Shown piece by piece: positions 922 to 42,218 of a stretch of DNA of 42,218 nucleotides. Positions within the stretch are counted from its first letter, which is position 1, and each line of letters opens with the position of its first letter. Location: positions 1 through 42,218 of the forward strand of contig CALBOV010000002.1 in assembly GCA_937896565.1 (NCBI GenBank), written 5' to 3'. A program made the position numbers and the translations under genes. Under the pieces are notes generated by a model. It ran no database searches. It was not told the DNA's origin and saw only the letters and a list, made by a program, of their open reading frames with translations. This stretch comes from an uncultured Salinisphaerales bacterium (GTDB lineage Bacteria > Pseudomonadota > Gammaproteobacteria > Nevskiales > OUC007).

Positions 922-3564
<2,643 letters not shown>

Positions 3565-29860: not shown

Positions 29861-30059
29861 CTAGCCCGGCGCGATTCCCGACACCTGATCGATTCCCTAC
29901 GTGACCTGGACGTCGCGGTCGGGGCTGGTCTGGCGTCGCTTCGTTCGAAGCGCTGGCCCCGGCGGGTGTCTTCGGACAGGCGGCATGGGCGCGAGGATCA
30001 TCCTTCGGTCCGGGCTCGCTTGCCCGGCCCCTGAACTGACGACAACGCAGGTGTCTGTG

Positions 30060-31400
30060 GTGGATTCCAATGCGCTCTGGCAGCGCTGTCTTGAACGGCT
30101 CGAAACCGTGCTCTCCGAATCCGACGTCGGCACCTGGGTGCGCCCGCTGCACGCTCATTCGCAGGACGGCAATCTCGAACTCATCGCTCCCAACCGGCCG
30201 GTGATGGAGAATGTGCGCTCGCAGTACCTCGCCACCATCAGCGCCGTCTGGAGCGAAGTGGTCGACCTGGAAAGTCCCCGGGTCACGGTTCGTGTCGGCT
30301 CGGCGGAAGCCTCAAGCTCGCCGGAACCCGGTGATGCACCCGTTGCGGCGCCGACGCCCAAACCCGAATCGCCGCACAGCAGCAGCCGGCTGGATCCGCG
30401 CTACACCTTCGAGCGCTTCGTGGAAGGCAAGAGCAACCAGATCGCGCGCGCGGCGGCCCAGAAGGTAGCCGAGTCACCTGGTACCTCCTACAACCCCTTG
30501 CTGATCTACGGCGGTACCGGGTTGGGGAAAACCCATCTGATGCACAGCGTGGGCAACTACCTCAGCGCCCGCGGCGGACCGAACCGGGTGGTCTACATAC
30601 CAGCCGAGCGCTTCGTCAACGACATGGTGCTTGCGGTGCGTCACAACCGCATGGACGGCTTCAAGAACTTCTACCGGACGGCGGAAGCCCTGCTGATCGA
30701 CGACATCCATTTCTTCGCCGGCAAGGAGCGGTCACAGGAGGAGTTCTTCCACACCTTCAATTCGCTGCTGGAGGCGAACCGGCAGATCATCCTGACCTGC
30801 GACCGCTATCCCGCCGAGCTGGACGCTCTCGATGACCGCCTGCAGAACCGGTTCTCCTGGGGCCTGTCGGTGGCGGTGGATCCGCCCGAACTGGAAACCC
30901 GGGTCGCGATCCTGATGAGCAAGGCCGAGCAACTGGGCGCGGCAGTACCGGAAACGGTGGCCTTCTTCATCGCCAACCGGATTCGCTCGAATGTCCGCGA
31001 GCTGGAGGGCGCACTCAACCGACTGGTGCACACCGCCCAGTTCACCGGGACCGCGATCGATATCGATTTCGCCCGGTACGCGCTGCAGGACATCCTGTCG
31101 GTGCATGAACGCATGGTGACCATCGAGAGCATCCAGCGCACCGTCGCCGAGTACTTCAGCATCCGGCTGTCGGACATGACCCAGCGCAGCCGGCGGCGCT
31201 CCATCGCCCGCCCCCGGCAGATGGCGATGGCCCTGGCCAAGGAACTCACCTCGCACAGCCTGCCGGAGATCGGCGATGCCTTCGGTGGCCGGGATCACAC
31301 GACGGTGCTGCATGCCTGCCGGACAATCCAGAAGCTCAAGGACTCCGATCGGGCGATCCGCGACGACTACGATGCCCTGTTGAGAACCCTGAGCCGATGA
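30060..31400 (+). CDS. dnaA: Chromosomal replication initiator protein DnaA
   Basis: This protein of about 446 residues is the AAA+ initiator that melts oriC. Domain I begins VDSNALWQRCLERLETVL with the WxRPL segment; a flexible Pro/Ser-rich domain II follows (about 85-125). Domain III has Walker A GGTGLGKTHL, Walker B LLIDDIHFFAGK, sensor DRLQNRFSWGL and the Arg-containing box VIR-type VRELEGALNRL. Domain IV holds the DNA-binding motif FGGRDHTTVLHACR. The frame extends upstream to 29901, but family members start at this point. GTG 30060 is preferred, with AGG eight bases upstream; GTG 30057 is equally possible. A GTG start is common for dnaA. Transcription runs into oriC and dnaN. Confidence 0.97.
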   Translation: MDSNALWQRCLERLETVLSESDVGTWVRPLHAHSQDGNLELIAPNRPVMENVRSQYLATISAVWSEVVDLESPRVTVRVGSAEASSSPEPGDAPVAAPTPKPESPHSSSRLDPRYTFERFVEGKSNQIARAAAQKVAESPGTSYNPLLIYGGTGLGKTHLMHSVGNYLSARGGPNRVVYIPAERFVNDMVLAVRHNRMDGFKNFYRTAEALLIDDIHFFAGKERSQEEFFHTFNSLLEANRQIILTCDRYPAELDALDDRLQNRFSWGLSVAVDPPELETRVAILMSKAEQLGAAVPETVAFFIANRIRSNVRELEGALNRLVHTAQFTGTAIDIDFARYALQDILSVHERMVTIESIQRTVAEYFSIRLSDMTQRSRRRSIARPRQMAMALAKELTSHSLPEIGDAFGGRDHTTVLHACRTIQKLKDSDRAIRDDYDALLRTLSR

Positions 31401-31641
31401 TGTGGATATCTAGGGGATGGAATGTGACAATGCCGGATCGGCCGGGACACGCACATTCTGTCCACAGGAACCCAGCGGGGATACCCCGATGTTTTCAGGG
31501 GTGGTTGAGTTCTCGTAACTCTATGATTTTGAATCGAAAAACCGCTGTTGTTCACAGGTCGGCGGGCAGCCTACTACTACGACTATCTTTTAAAAGACTC
31601 TTTTATATAAGTATTGACCGAAGGAGTTCGGGGACCACGTC
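31401..31641 (+). other. oriC: Replication origin oriC (dnaA-dnaN gap) with DnaA-trio-like element
   Basis: This 241-base gap holds DnaA-box-like 9-mers: TGTGGATAT at 31401-31409 (one mismatch, reverse), CTGTCCACA at 31458-31466 (two mismatches, forward) and TTGTTCACA at 31548-31556 (two mismatches to the strict consensus, forward). After the last box comes a GC-rich spacer (GGTCGGCGGGCAG), then CTACTACTACGACTA at 31571-31585, a run of trinucleotides like the DnaA-trio described in Bacillus oriC, then an AT-rich tract TATCTTTTAAAAGACTCTTTTATATAAGTA. The order box, GC-rich, trio, AT-rich is that of the basal origin unwinding system. An AAGGAG/GGGGA ribosome-binding region for dnaN closes the gap. 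Confidence 0.85.
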
Positions 31642-32742
31642 ATGAAGTTCGAGATTGATCGCGGATCGTTCCTGCAGACCATCCAGGCTGTCATCGGTGT
31701 CATCGAGCGACGCCAGACGATGCCAATTCTGTCGAACTTTCACATCGAGGCGTCGGAGACCGGTTTGCGACTGACCGGGACCGATCTGGAGCTGGAACTC
31801 GTCAGTCACGTCCAGGCGCAGATCGACCAGCCCGGCGCGGTCACCGTGCCCGCCCGCAAGCTGTTCGACATCTGCCGCGGCCTGCCCGAAGGTTCGGTGA
31901 TCCGGGCCGAGCTGAGCGATCAGAAATTCATTGTTCGCTCCGGCCGCAGCCGCTTCACGCTGGCCACGCAACCGGCGGCCGAGTTCCCCTCGTTGGGCGA
32001 TATCGATTCGGCCGATCGCCACGCCATTCCCAACCTCGCCTTGCGTCAGGTGCTGAACCGCACGATGTTCGCGATGGCGCAGCAGGATGTGCGCTACTAC
32101 CTCAACGGTTTGCTGCTGGCACTGCGTCGCGATCGGCTGCGCGCCGTTGCAACCGATGGCCACCGGCTGGCGATGTCCGACGTGGATGTGGATCTGGACA
32201 TCGCCGAGGAGCGTCAGGTCATCGTTCCCCGCAAGGGCGTGCTGGAGCTGAACCGGCTGCTGTCCGATGACGACGAGACGGTCAGTCTCTCGCTGACCAA
32301 TAACCATCTGCAGGTGGACCTGGGCACCATCCTGTTCACCACCAAGTTGATCGATGGCCGTTTTCCGGACTACGAGAAAGTCGTGCCGATTGGCGGCGAC
32401 AAGATTCTCACCGGGGATCGCGAGGTGATCCGCCAGGCACTGGCGCGAGCCGCGATTCTGTCCAACGAAAAATTCCGCGGCGTGCGGCTGGTGCTCGATC
32501 CGGGGCTGCTGAAGTTGCAGACCGAGAACCCGGAGCACGAGGAAGCCGAAGAGGAGATCGAGGTCGACTACGACGGCGCTCCGCTGGAGATCGGCTTCAA
32601 CGTCAACTACCTGCTCGATGCGCTGGGTGTGATGGAAGGCGACGCCTTCAAGTTCGCGATGAGTTCGCCGGACGCCGGTGGGCTGCTCACCGAAATGGGT
32701 ACGGACGCGCACAAGTACGTCGTCATGCCCATGCGGCTCTGA
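31642..32742 (+). CDS. dnaN: DNA polymerase III subunit beta (sliding clamp)
   Basis: This 366-residue ring-forming clamp tethers replicative and repair polymerases to DNA. It has three repeats of the clamp fold with typical pieces: MKFEIDRGSFLQTIQAVIGVIERRQTMPILSNF at the start, GTDLELELVSHV, ATDGHRLAMSDVDVD near 170, RFPDYEKVVP near 240, and the C-terminal KYVVMPMRL that closes the hydrophobic binding pocket. The size matches E. coli (366). It follows oriC, with GGGGA seven bases and AAGGAG fifteen bases before ATG 31642. recF starts 49 bases downstream. Confidence 0.98.
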   Translation: MKFEIDRGSFLQTIQAVIGVIERRQTMPILSNFHIEASETGLRLTGTDLELELVSHVQAQIDQPGAVTVPARKLFDICRGLPEGSVIRAELSDQKFIVRSGRSRFTLATQPAAEFPSLGDIDSADRHAIPNLALRQVLNRTMFAMAQQDVRYYLNGLLLALRRDRLRAVATDGHRLAMSDVDVDLDIAEERQVIVPRKGVLELNRLLSDDDETVSLSLTNNHLQVDLGTILFTTKLIDGRFPDYEKVVPIGGDKILTGDREVIRQALARAAILSNEKFRGVRLVLDPGLLKLQTENPEHEEAEEEIEVDYDGAPLEIGFNVNYLLDALGVMEGDAFKFAMSSPDAGGLLTEMGTDAHKYVVMPMRL

Positions 32743-32791
32743 TCGCAACCAGCGAACTTCTCTCGGGTCATCTGGCTGACCCGTTTCCGAC

Positions 32792-33865
32792 GTGCTGATT
32801 CGCTCATTGGCGCTGACCGACTTTCGTTGTCATGCCGGACTGCGTTTGTCCTTTTCGTCTGCCGCCGGCGGTGGTGCCGCGATCGTCGGCGACAACGCCA
32901 CCGGCAAGACATCCATACTCGAAGCGATCTACCTGCTCAGCCGCGGGTTGTCGTTTCGGGGCAGTTCCCCCACCGACGTGATCCGGCACGGATGCGACCA
33001 TGCGCTGGTGGTCGGCGAGCTCGAGTTGCCGGACGGTCCGACCCGGGTTGCGGTGCAGCGGGAACGAACGCAGATTCAGACCCGACTGGGTCGGACGAAA
33101 GAGATCCCCATCGTCGAACTGGCGCGTGCGCTGCCCATCCAGGTCATGGACCCGCGAGCGCACCGGTTGATCGACGAAGGCCCCGTACACCGCAGGCGGC
33201 TGCTGGATTGGGGAGTGTTCCACGTGGAACATTCGTTCATTCAGGACTGGCGTCAGTTCCAGCGTCTGCTGCGCCAGCGCAACGCGGCATGTCGGCAGCG
33301 CGACCGGCAGCAACTGCGTGCGTGGAATCCCTCTTACATCGAGTTGTCGCGTCGCATCGATGACGCTCGTCGCAGACATCTGGATGAGGTCGCGGGCGGA
33401 TGGAGCCGCCACGTTGAGGCATTGCTCGGTTCGGATCACGCGCCGAGGATTGGCTATCGAAGTGGCTGGCCCTCAGGTGTCGACTTCGCCGAAGTACTCG
33501 ATTCGGTGGAGGCGCGGGAGCTCGATGCGGGCCACAGCGTTGTCGGTCCGCACCGGGCTGATCTGCGATTGCAGCTGGATGGTCGCCAGGTCCGTCACCA
33601 GGCATCCCGGGGCCAGCAGAAGGCGCTGGTGCTTGCGTTGCTGCTGGCCCAGGTGGAAGTGGTCAGTCAGCGTCTCGGTCAAGCGCCGGTCCTGCTGATT
33701 GATGACTTTGGCGCCGAATGGGGAGAGGGCATGCGGAGGCGTGCCGTCGCGCAGCTCAACGCGAGTCCGGTCCAGTGGATCTCGACCTGGCTGGATGCGC
33801 CCGATTCCGGCTTGGACATCCGTGACATGTTCCACGTGGAACATCTGGCGGACACCACTCCGTGA
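32792..33865 (+). CDS. recF: DNA replication and repair protein RecF
   Basis: This 357-residue SMC-like ATPase loads RecA at gaps through RecOR. Walker A is GDNATGKTS near residue 32, the ABC signature region is ASRGQQKALVLALLLAQ (about 270) and Walker B is VLLIDDFGAEW. It starts with GTG 32792 (VLIRSLALTDFRCH), the usual family start. Two 16-base parS palindromes lie inside the coding region, translated as VFHVEH (about residue 142) and MFHVEH (about residue 346); the second lies in a short C-terminal tail after the last conserved segment. It stands between dnaN and gyrB as in E. coli; the gap to gyrB is 31 bases. Confidence 0.96.
   Translation: MLIRSLALTDFRCHAGLRLSFSSAAGGGAAIVGDNATGKTSILEAIYLLSRGLSFRGSSPTDVIRHGCDHALVVGELELPDGPTRVAVQRERTQIQTRLGRTKEIPIVELARALPIQVMDPRAHRLIDEGPVHRRRLLDWGVFHVEHSFIQDWRQFQRLLRQRNAACRQRDRQQLRAWNPSYIELSRRIDDARRRHLDEVAGGWSRHVEALLGSDHAPRIGYRSGWPSGVDFAEVLDSVEARELDAGHSVVGPHRADLRLQLDGRQVRHQASRGQQKALVLALLLAQVEVVSQRLGQAPVLLIDDFGAEWGEGMRRRAVAQLNASPVQWISTWLDAPDSGLDIRDMFHVEHLADTTP
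33216..33231. promoter_or_regulatory. parS: parS site 1 (ParB-binding centromere) inside recF
   Basis: TGTTCCACGTGGAACA is a perfect 16-base palindrome equal to the pseudomonad-type chromosomal parS sequence. It lies in recF, about 1.6 kb from oriC, and encodes VFHVEH in the recF frame. ParB binds here to nucleate the partition complex. No parAB genes are in the window. Confidence 0.9.
33828..33843. promoter_or_regulatory. parS: parS site 2 (ParB-binding centromere) at the recF 3' end
   Basis: This is a second identical TGTTCCACGTGGAACA, here extended to an 18-base palindrome by flanking A and T. It lies 612 bases downstream of the first copy, encodes MFHVEH in the recF C-terminal tail, and is about 2.3 kb from oriC. 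Confidence 0.9.
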
Positions 33866-33878
33866 TACCATGAACTAG

Positions 33879-36311
<2,433 letters not shown>

Positions 36312-37613: not shown

Positions 37614-38357
37614 ATGCCAGCACACAGTCTTCGATATTGTAAAGCGTTCGTCGCCGCAGGCCTTTTGTTCGCCGCGTATCCGCTGCTTGCGGCGACGGTG
37701 GACGTGCAGCTTAAGGGCATTCGCGACGACGCCATCCGCAACAACACCGAAGGCTTTCTGGCCATCAAGAAGCTGGAGGGCAACGACAGCGCCCGACCGC
37801 GAGCGATTCGCAGGCTCCACCGGCGCGCCGAACAGGACATTCAGGACGCGCTCCGACCCTTCGGCTTCTACAATCCGGTGATCCGTTCCGAGCTGGAACC
37901 GGTGGACGGTGGTTACAAAGCCACTTATGTGGTCGACACCGGGCCGCCCACGACCTTGCGTGACATCCGTATCGAGATCACCGGCCCGGGCTCCGGCGAA
38001 CAGGCGTTGCGCGATACCGTGCAGGCCAGCCGCCTGCGCGCTGATGCGCCGCTTCGGCATCCGCTTTACAACGCCACCAAGTCGGCGATTCGGGACACCG
38101 CGTTCAAACTCGGTTATCTGGATGCCCGATTCACCGCGCATCGTCTGGCGGTTGATCCGTCGGTCAACCGCGCCGATGTGGAGCTGGTGCTGGAAAGCGG
38201 GGACGCCTACGAGTTCGGCGAGATTCGCATTGACCAGGATGTCCTCGATCCCGAGTTCCTCAATCGCTACGTCAATGTTCGCACCGGCGAGCGTTTCGAT
38301 TCTTCCGAACTGGTGAACCTGCAACTCCACCTCGCCGATCTCGGTTACTTCGATTAG
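37614..38357 (+). pseudogene. tamA: tamA, N-terminal (POTRA) part before an in-frame amber stop
   Basis: This 247-residue product has a signal peptide (MPAHSLRYCKAFVAAGLLFA, cleaved near LLAA) and three POTRA-like repeats: VDVQLKGIRDDAIRNNTEGFL, then about 100-170 with LRDIRIEITGPG, and about 175-247 with YEFGEIRIDQDVLDPEFLNRYVNVRTGERFDSSELVNLQLHLADLGYFD. It stops at TAG 38355-38357, exactly where the third POTRA should continue YFDxVQV. The following codon continues the same frame as the TamA barrel. TamA is the outer-membrane Omp85 half of the TAM envelope machine; without the barrel this fragment should not be inserted. ATG 37614 has AAGGG five bases upstream. A single change such as CAG to TAG would explain the stop. 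Confidence 0.85.
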
Positions 38358-39362
38358 GTGCAGGTCGATGCCAACAAGGACGATGCGCAGGACCACCGGA
38401 TTCCGGTGGTTGTTCGCACCACGCCGCTCGCGTCCCAGCGCTACGAGGCCGGCGTCGGCTACGGCACCGACACCGGTGCGCGGCTAACCGCCGGCGCGGA
38501 GTGGCGCCGGCTCAATCGCCAGGGCCACCAGCTGGACTTGTCGTTCCAGCTCTCCGAAGTGATCAACACGCTGACCACCCAGTACCTGATCCCGGTCGGG
38601 AGCGTACCCGGCGATTCGGTGACATTCTCGGCCGGCGCGGAGGACGAGGACCTGGAGGATGGCGAGCGCCGGACCCTGCGCCTGGAGGCGGCGCGCAACT
38701 GGCAGCTGGGCGACTGGTATCGTCGCTACTACCTGCAATTCCTGCGTGAAGACTACGAGCTGTCGGACGAGCAGCGTCTCAGCATCCTGTTGACGCCCGG
38801 CGTGAGCTTCACGCGCACGGAGGTGTCCGACCCGGTGTTCGCCCGTAGCGGCTGGAGTACCTTCTTCGACGTGCATGGCGCGGTGCGCGACGTGTTGTCC
38901 GACACCAGCTTCATCCAGTCCCGGCTCCGCCTGCAGGGGGTGCTGCCGGTGTTCAGCCGCGGCCGCCTGCTGCTTCGGACCGAGGTCGGCGGCAGCTGGA
39001 CCGAGGAATTCTCCGACCTGCCAGCCTCGGAACGATTCTTCGCCGGCGGGGACAGCAGCGTGCGCGGTTACGCCTACGAATCCCTGGGTCCGGAGGATGA
39101 CGAGGGTCGCGTGATCGGCGGGGAGTTCCTGCTCACCGGTTCCGTCGAATACGAGCAGATCATCTGGCGTGGCATGGGCGCCGCCGTGTTCGTCGACGCC
39201 GGCAACGCCGCCGACGCGGGCATCCCCGAACCTGTCTACGGGGCCGGCATCGGGTTTCGCTACCGCTCTCCGGTGGGTGTGATTCGCATTGATGTGGCCC
39301 ATCCCTTCGACGATCCCGAGCGCGCCGCACGGCTGCATATCGGCGTGAGGGCGGGCCTGTGA
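38358..39362 (+). pseudogene. tamA: tamA, C-terminal (Omp85 beta-barrel) part after the amber stop
   Basis: This is the same frame as the preceding piece, open for 334 codons: VQVDANKDDAQDHRIPVVVRTTPLASQRYEAGVGYGTDTG, then a 16-strand-type barrel with the Omp85 signature RFFAGGDSSVRGYAYESLGPEDDEG (VRGF-like VRGY in the L6 loop) and GAVFVDAGNAADAG..., ending SPVGVIRIDVAHPF...LHIGVRAGL. A GTG directly follows the TAG and could allow re-initiation, but the product would lack a signal peptide and POTRAs, so it could not reach the outer membrane alone. Coding quality is undiminished (no further stops or frameshifts), so the interruption is recent, an error, or read through. Its stop overlaps the tamB start (GTGA). 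Confidence 0.85.
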
Positions 39363-42218
39363 AGCGAACCTGGGTGCGCTGGCTGAAGTGGATACCGGTC
39401 GGGCTGACGGCAACCGTCGCGCTCATCGTGCTCATTGCGCTGACCACGGAGATTGGCGTCGCGATCGCATGGTCGCTGGCGCGCGACCGCCTGCCGGCCG
39501 GAGTGCAGATCGACGATGTCCAGGGGCGCCTCGTCGGTCCGCTGACGGTGACCGGCGTCAATGTCGAGACCGAGGCCATGAGCCTGCGAGTTGACCGCGC
39601 CGTGCTGGACTGGCGCGCCAGCCGCCTGCTGATGGCGCAGGTCCAGATCGCGGAACTGGCGGTCGACGGCGTGGACATCGTGCTGCGACCCACCCACTCA
39701 CCGCCGCCGCCCGAAACCGACGAACCGCCGTCTCTCGATTTCCGCGCGCCGATCACGCTGGTGATCGAGCAGGCCGGCCTGAGCGATTTCAGCCTCAAAA
39801 CCGCGCCCGACGCTGAGCCGCTGATCGTCGAATCGCTGGAACTCGCCGGGGTCTGGGACCGCAACAGCCTGCAGGTCTCCGAACTGGATGTCCGCTCGCC
39901 GCTGACCGGACACCTCAGCGCCAGCACGCTGGTGCTGCTGGAACGTGGCGGCCTGCGTGTCCAGTCACTGAAACTCGCCGAAGTCGATGCCGCGCTGGAG
40001 GCCCGGCTCTCGGGGCACTTCCATCGCGCCTTCGGCCGCTACGCCGTGAAACTGACCGGTGACTGGACAGCTTTGCGCTGGCCGTTACAGGGCGATCCGA
40101 TGCTGCGTTCCCCGCGCGGCAGCATCGATGTGGTGGGCACGCTGCCCGAACTCGCCGGTGAATTGCAGGCGCAGTTGCGCTCACGTGGCGACACCGTGTC
40201 GGTCGCCGCAAGCGGCGGTCTCGAGGACGAACGGGTCGATGTCACGCTGAGCTGGGACGCCCTGGCCTGGCCGCTGGAGGAGTCCGCCGGTCCGGTTCAG
40301 GTCAGCGTGGATGGCGGCCAGCTCACCGGCAAGGGGCCTGTCGACGCCGTGCGTCTGCGCGGCGGCACGCGCGTGATCCCGACGGAGTTCAAGCCCATCC
40401 GCATCGATCTGGAGGGGATTGCCAGTACCGAACGCGTGGAGCTCAAGCCGCTGCGGATTGGTGTCGCCGGCTCGGAGACCAGCCTGACCGGCGGCCTGCG
40501 CTGGCAGCCCGCGCTGGCCGCCGACCTGCAACTGGTCACGCGCACACTGGACCCGTCGGCCCTGTCCGAGCAGCTGTCGCAATGGCCCGGACAGATCGCC
40601 GCGAACGCGGCACTCGAAGTCAGGACGGTCGACGATACGATCCAGGTGCGGATACCGCGCCTGCATGCCGAGGGTTCGCTGCGCGAACAGCCCCTGCAGG
40701 TCGATGCCGCGGCCACCGCCAGCCCGGATGCCGTGCGCGTGAGGCAGCTGCAGCTGCGGGCACTGGGTGGGTCGATAACCGGGGAGGCCGACCTGTCGCT
40801 GCGCCAGCAGCTCGCTGGATCAGCCACGTTGACCGCCCGCGATCTGGACCCGTCCCTGCTGCTGGAACAATGGCCCGGCGAGATCGACGCCGATGTCACA
40901 TTGCAGCTGGCGGGCACGCGCGCCTCACCGATCGTCCGGGTGCCGACGCTGACCGTGGAAGGCCGCTTGCGCGAGCGGCCGTTGCGGCTGGACGCCGCGC
41001 TCCGCTATGCCAACGACACCGCCGACATCGAGCGGCTGACGCTGGCCTCCGGCCAGTCCGAACTGCATGTGGATGGCCAGGCATCCGCCAGCAGCCTGGC
41101 GGTGGACTGGGACATCAGCAGTCCGGATCTCGCCGATTTCTACCCCGGCCTGACCGGGAGCCTGAAAGCGGACGGCCGCGTCGAGGGTCCCGTCAGGACA
41201 CCGCGCGTAATCGCGAGCCTGCGGGGTGAATCGCTTGGCTATCAGCGCTACTCGCTGGCCGGTATCGATGCCGAGGCCGACATCAATATCGCTGACGGCA
41301 GCACCCTGCTGCTGGACGCGCGGGTGGCCGATGCGCAGATCGAGGCGACGGGTATTCGCACGCTGGTGCTGGAGACCCGGGGCAGCGCGGACGATCTGAC
41401 GCTGGAACTGGAAACCCAGACCACCGAGGGCGATCTGACGCTGGGCCTGTCCGGCCAGGTCGATCTCGACAGTCTGGCCTGGACCGGCGACCTGACCCGG
41501 CTGATCATCGATCCGGTGGACTTTCCGCCCTGGACGCTGGAGTCGCCGACGCCGGTGTCGTTCCACGCACCGGACTGGTCCGTGGGCGATGCCTGTCTTG
41601 CCGCGGAGCCCAACGTCAAGCGCCGTCCCTCGATGAGCCGGCGTCGCAGCCGCCTGTGCCTGCGTGCCGGGTCCGATGACCAGGGCCTGAGCGCGCAGAC
41701 CGACATTGAATTCTTTGATCTGGCGTATCTCACGCCGCTGCTGCCGCCGGCCACTCGACTGAGCGGTTCGCTCAGCGGCAACGCGACCTACTCCCGGGGT
41801 GAGGGGCGCGAAGCGGTGACCGCCGATCTCAGAACATCGGCGATCGAACTTGCCGGCACCCGCTCGCCGGACGATCCGCTGGATGTCGCCTTCGCGCCGG
41901 GCGAGCTGACCATCGCCAATGAAGGCGAACAGACGATCCTCACCGTTCGTCTGCCGCTGGAGGATGAGCCCGCCGCGGGTCTGGCGCTGGACGCCACGCT
42001 GCAAGGCCAGGGACCACTGGTTGAGCGGCCCCTGGAGGGGCGTCTGACCGCGGAGCTCACCAATCTCGACTTCATCGCGTTGATCCTGGATGCGTTGACT
42101 GACGTGACCGGCCGGTTCGATGCCGACATGCGGCTGGCCGGTCGTCTCGGCGCTCCCGAGATCGGCGGCGAAATGCACCTGCGCAACGCGGCCGCGTCAG
42201 TGGATGTGGCCGGTGTCG
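39359..42218 (+). CDS. tamB: Translocation and assembly module protein TamB (right end outside window)
   Basis: This is an inner-membrane-anchored AsmA/TamB-type protein that spans the periplasm and works with TamA in outer-membrane assembly or lipid transport. At least 953 codons are open to the window edge by my reading. The N-terminus has one membrane anchor (about 10-30, WIPVGLTATVALIVLIALTT) after basic residues (MKRTWVRWLK), followed by the family start VQIDDVQGRLVGPLTVTGVNV. The rest is a long repeat-like beta-rich taco/beta-helix region with many LxLxxLxLxG patterns, as expected. A Pro-rich insert (HSPPPPETDEPPSLDF) lies near residue 115. The conserved C-terminal DUF490 domain is not reached. 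The GTG start overlaps the tamA stop (GTGA), so translation should depend on ribosomes finishing tamA. Confidence 0.9.
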   Translation, partial: MKRTWVRWLKWIPVGLTATVALIVLIALTTEIGVAIAWSLARDRLPAGVQIDDVQGRLVGPLTVTGVNVETEAMSLRVDRAVLDWRASRLLMAQVQIAELAVDGVDIVLRPTHSPPPPETDEPPSLDFRAPITLVIEQAGLSDFSLKTAPDAEPLIVESLELAGVWDRNSLQVSELDVRSPLTGHLSASTLVLLERGGLRVQSLKLAEVDAALEARLSGHFHRAFGRYAVKLTGDWTALRWPLQGDPMLRSPRGSIDVVGTLPELAGELQAQLRSRGDTVSVAASGGLEDERVDVTLSWDALAWPLEESAGPVQVSVDGGQLTGKGPVDAVRLRGGTRVIPTEFKPIRIDLEGIASTERVELKPLRIGVAGSETSLTGGLRWQPALAADLQLVTRTLDPSALSEQLSQWPGQIAANAALEVRTVDDTIQVRIPRLHAEGSLREQPLQVDAAATASPDAVRVRQLQLRALGGSITGEADLSLRQQLAGSATLTARDLDPSLLLEQWPGEIDADVTLQLAGTRASPIVRVPTLTVEGRLRERPLRLDAALRYANDTADIERLTLASGQSELHVDGQASASSLAVDWDISSPDLADFYPGLTGSLKADGRVEGPVRTPRVIASLRGESLGYQRYSLAGIDAEADINIADGSTLLLDARVADAQIEATGIRTLVLETRGSADDLTLELETQTTEGDLTLGLSGQVDLDSLAWTGDLTRLIIDPVDFPPWTLESPTPVSFHAPDWSVGDACLAAEPNVKRRPSMSRRRSRLCLRAGSDDQGLSAQTDIEFFDLAYLTPLLPPATRLSGSLSGNATYSRGEGREAVTADLRTSAIELAGTRSPDDPLDVAFAPGELTIANEGEQTILTVRLPLEDEPAAGLALDATLQGQGPLVERPLEGRLTAELTNLDFIALILDALTDVTGRFDADMRLAGRLGAPEIGGEMHLRNAAASVDVAGV

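Follow-up and report, generated by a model that had tools for sequence, protein, structure and literature searches.

The outer-membrane assembly gene tamA on a contig of a draft genome from a marine gammaproteobacterium is interrupted by a single in-frame TAG codon, and we consider it probable that this represents a very young allele of a dispensable gene, with function lost or strongly reduced, produced by a genuine C-to-T nonsense change. Whether it is such a change, of recent origin and private to this genome, or a mistake in the consensus, the event is an ordinary one, and a novel mode of decoding is unlikely. The evidence for this assessment comes from the anatomy of the gene, the codon present in its relatives, the pattern of selection on both sides of the stop, and the manner in which TAG is used elsewhere in the genome.

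Anatomy and surroundings of the interrupted tamA gene

The stretch of DNA that was analysed (the window; 42,218 nucleotides) is a complete contig (C2) of a draft genome (G000) that consists of 414 contigs and is 88.5% complete with 4.4% contamination. Its closest relatives are two congeneric genomes, namely G002 (JAGLCS010000042.1), an Abyssibacter MAG that is the nearest named relative, and G001. The barrels encoded by these two genomes are 93% and 84% identical, respectively, to that of the tamA gene described here. From approximately 10.6 kb onward, the window is collinear with contig 13 of G001 and contains no further broken gene.

Model matches identify dnaA and gyrB within positions 29901-36311, and the two genes between them are positioned as dnaN and recF, identities that are assigned by position. 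The dnaA-gyrB block is followed by genes for alanine dehydrogenase, TamA and TamB, and the region of the replication origin is probably part of this contig. At the other end of the contig, an open reading frame (922-3564) encodes three domains of methionine synthase (pterin-binding, B12-binding and activation) without the homocysteine-binding domain, and the preceding frame (18-905) may be a separate gene for this missing part. The features relevant to tamA are as follows.

37614..38357, + strand: tamA 5' part, encoding the signal peptide, POTRA1-2 and most of POTRA3, and ending at the in-frame TAG
38355..38357, + strand: in-frame TAG, which is CAG in both congeners and a sense codon in approximately 55 aligned relatives
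38358..39362, + strand: tamA 3' part, encoding the end of POTRA3 and the Omp85 barrel, with GTG as its first codon and without a signal peptide
39359..42218, + strand: tamB, with an NF047952 match, a GTGA overlap with the tamA stop and a frame that runs open to the end of the contig

The nucleotides TAC TTC GAT TAG GTG CAG GTC place the TAG at 38355-38357 in frame with tamA (37614-39362), as an earlier note made from the sequence alone had reported, and this is the only stop inside the frame. If the TAG is taken as a sense codon, the product is 582 residues in length, which matches the approximately 582 codons given in that note for the joined frame. The 5' part (247 amino acids) begins with a segment resembling a signal peptide and matches PF17243 (POTRA_TamA_1). 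It also matches the POTRA model PF07244 at positions 1-54 of 79, and because this match breaks off at position 54, the TAG is placed within POTRA3. The 3' part (334 amino acids) matches PF01103 (Omp85), and the two halves match the NCBIfam model NF047950 (ATportTamA; length 569) consecutively, at positions 6-229 and 234-565. These Pfam and NCBIfam matches bear out the arrangement described in the earlier note, wherein a signal peptide and POTRA repeats precede the TAG and an Omp85 barrel and a coupled tamB follow it.

The read-through product aligns over its full length with the TamA chain of PDB entry 8us1 (E 9e-87), and its residues 7-578 are covered by the chain of entry 9xdc. Since the product aligns at the position of the stop with TamA chains of solved structure, and also with the unbroken tamA frame of a congener, the stop does not lie in a chance frame. 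Combined, the two halves supply a TamA-type POTRA followed by an Omp85 barrel, and tamB lies downstream as expected of a TamA gene (NF047952 match at 39359-42217). The frame is broken by the TAG at 38355-38357 and is uninterrupted in all aligned relatives. Judged on these features, the locus is a TamA gene by descent, but one that encodes no intact TamA. It resembles the TamA of the translocation and assembly module (E. coli, 4c00; P. aeruginosa tamAB) in having three POTRA domains and an Omp85 barrel, and in P. aeruginosa, too, tamA is reported to be followed immediately by tamB, with the stop codon of the first gene overlapping the start codon of the second (PMC13098762). It differs from the E. 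coli and P. aeruginosa genes by the one in-frame TAG in POTRA3.

No second tamA copy or duplicate of the region was found in the assembly, which holds one such locus. A second TamA that might serve as a backup was considered and rejected; the other Omp85 matches lie on contigs C18 and C230. The match on C18 is a 776-codon frame that is probably BamA, whereas that on C230 (L003) is a short Omp85-family protein distinct from both BamA and TamA.

The homologous codon in relatives and the age of the stop

The homologous codon is CAG (glutamine) in both congeners and AAT in a genome of the same family (G003). All of the approximately 55 distinct TamA relatives, a count that leaves out ten minus-strand loci misoriented in the alignment, carry a sense codon at this site, with Q, N, S, T, K, L, Y and G as the encoded residues. 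Because of this distribution, the TAG is considered private to this assembly and the result of a single C-to-T transition that converted CAG to TAG, and the site at codon 248 accepts many residues. A two-gene tamA shared by relatives, which the earlier note had raised as an arrangement incompatible with an interrupted gene, is absent; the gene is uninterrupted in all relatives that were checked.

Rates of substitution relative to G002 were estimated by the Nei-Gojobori method, and changes were assigned to lineages by using G001 as the outgroup. The 5' part yields a dN of 0.121 and a dS of 1.3, and the 3' part yields a dN of 0.042 and a dS of approximately 0.95. The resulting dN/dS of approximately 0.04 for the 3' part shows that this region is under strong purifying selection. 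On the G000 lineage, 11 amino-acid changes fall in the 5' part, 11 in the 3' part and 65 in tamB, compared with 16, 8 and 69, respectively, on the G002 lineage, such that neither an excess nor a relaxation of change on the G000 lineage is seen in these regions. Because selection after the stop shows no relaxation, the stop, if real, would be very young. An old pseudogene was rejected on the same grounds, and tamA carries no further lesions. The conservation of the 3' part dates from before the mutation and is uninformative on function after it.

Stops that interrupt the frames of otherwise conserved genes have been described as widespread in bacteria and mostly short-lived, a CAG/TAG case among them, and artefacts were named as a concern (PMC7918605; 2021). 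The tamA stop resembles these cases in the CAG/TAG difference between orthologues, in the purifying selection and in being short-lived. However, the stop described here occurs in one genome only, and therefore neither persistence nor readthrough can be argued from it. Among the titles and abstracts listed, none was relevant to premature stops in tamA.

Termination and decoding at UAG

The earlier note correctly listed error, recent inactivation, suppression and recoding as explanations but left them unranked, and several genomic features argue against the latter two. The gene for RF1 (prfA) is intact, scoring 533 bits against a cut-off of 423 and retaining the GGQ and PxT motifs. Of 202 genes for which the 3' end was compared with homologous sequences, 49 terminate in TAG. 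The search for a suppressor tRNA, as proposed in the earlier note, revealed no CTA anticodon among the 43 tRNA genes found in this 88.5% complete genome; a tRNA-Leu with the anticodon tag decodes CUA and is not an amber suppressor. In this organism, TAG is thus a normal, functioning stop codon. Reassignment or recoding of UAG is rejected on the basis of the intact RF1, the tRNA complement, the common use of TAG as a terminator and the private nature of the stop, which is conserved in none of the orthologues aligned.

Readthrough without reassignment would require that a near-cognate tRNA or a suppressor decodes UAG to give a low level of full-length TamA, possibly for regulation. Given the variety of residues tolerated at the site, nearly every amino acid inserted there should be acceptable. 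The 3' part is also conserved, and readthrough has been argued to be common for such stops (PMC7918605). Nevertheless, we regard this explanation as unlikely, since RF1 is intact, the 43 tRNAs of this incomplete genome include none with a CTA anticodon, and no stable RNA structure that might promote readthrough lies downstream of the TAG (fold z-score -1.09). Moreover, the stop is found in no relative, and therefore the conservation of the 3' part reflects the time before the mutation. We give still less credence to the proposal that a real UAG is read through sufficiently to supply some full-length TamA and coupled TamB, and would thereby act as a dimmer on TAM in this population.

The GTG immediately 3' of the TAG could in principle restart translation, such that the barrel half is made separately and TamA consists of two chains. 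The earlier note doubted this arrangement, and we consider it extremely improbable: the barrel half indeed has no signal peptide, no clear ribosome-binding site precedes the GTG, and the gene is split in none of the relatives aligned. Recent inactivation and consensus error are the explanations that remain.

Consensus error and the consequences of a nonsense allele

The main competing explanation is a consensus or assembly error, which we judge possible but distinctly less probable than a genuine mutation. The organism would then have CAG, and the TAG would reflect either a miscalled base or the choice of a minor allele during the collapsing of strain variants. The draft is fragmented, incomplete and partly contaminated (see above), the change involves one base that is private to this assembly, no decay surrounds the stop, and no other copy of the region exists. 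However, a survey for interrupted genes in a 756-kb sample, of which approximately 266 kb (approximately 7% of the genome) had homologues among the sequences compared, revealed no other in-frame stop or frameshift in the homology-checked sequence. With tamA as the sole interrupted gene there, the assembly is not error-prone in general. The window was chosen because it holds the stop, and the rarity of the tamA case in this survey counts neither for nor against any explanation. General assembly trouble was rejected, as inspection showed the other stop and frameshift candidates in the sampled genome to be shadow frames, adjacent genes or sequence preceding start codons. A codon-usage census by itself is too insensitive for this purpose and failed to flag tamA.

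We infer that the base itself is real in the organism. The favoured course of events is a C-to-T transition that changed glutamine codon 248 of tamA to TAG in this strain or population, such that UAG would end translation inside POTRA3. The 5' product would be an exported periplasmic POTRA fragment missing the final strands of POTRA3 as well as the barrel, and the barrel itself would be either not made or not exported. If translation restarted at the GTG that follows the TAG, the resulting barrel fragment would remain cytoplasmic because it has no signal peptide. Translation of tamB would probably also fall through loss of the coupling provided by the GTGA overlap. P. aeruginosa tam knock-outs are viable but outcompeted (PMC13098762), and therefore a tamA null allele can exist.

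This case has value mostly for calibration. A draft-genome gene that is intact apart from one clean stop looks striking, but the use of close relatives and of stop codon usage traces the stop to a private point change. If the base is real, this environmental bacterium would carry a naturally occurring null allele of tamA.
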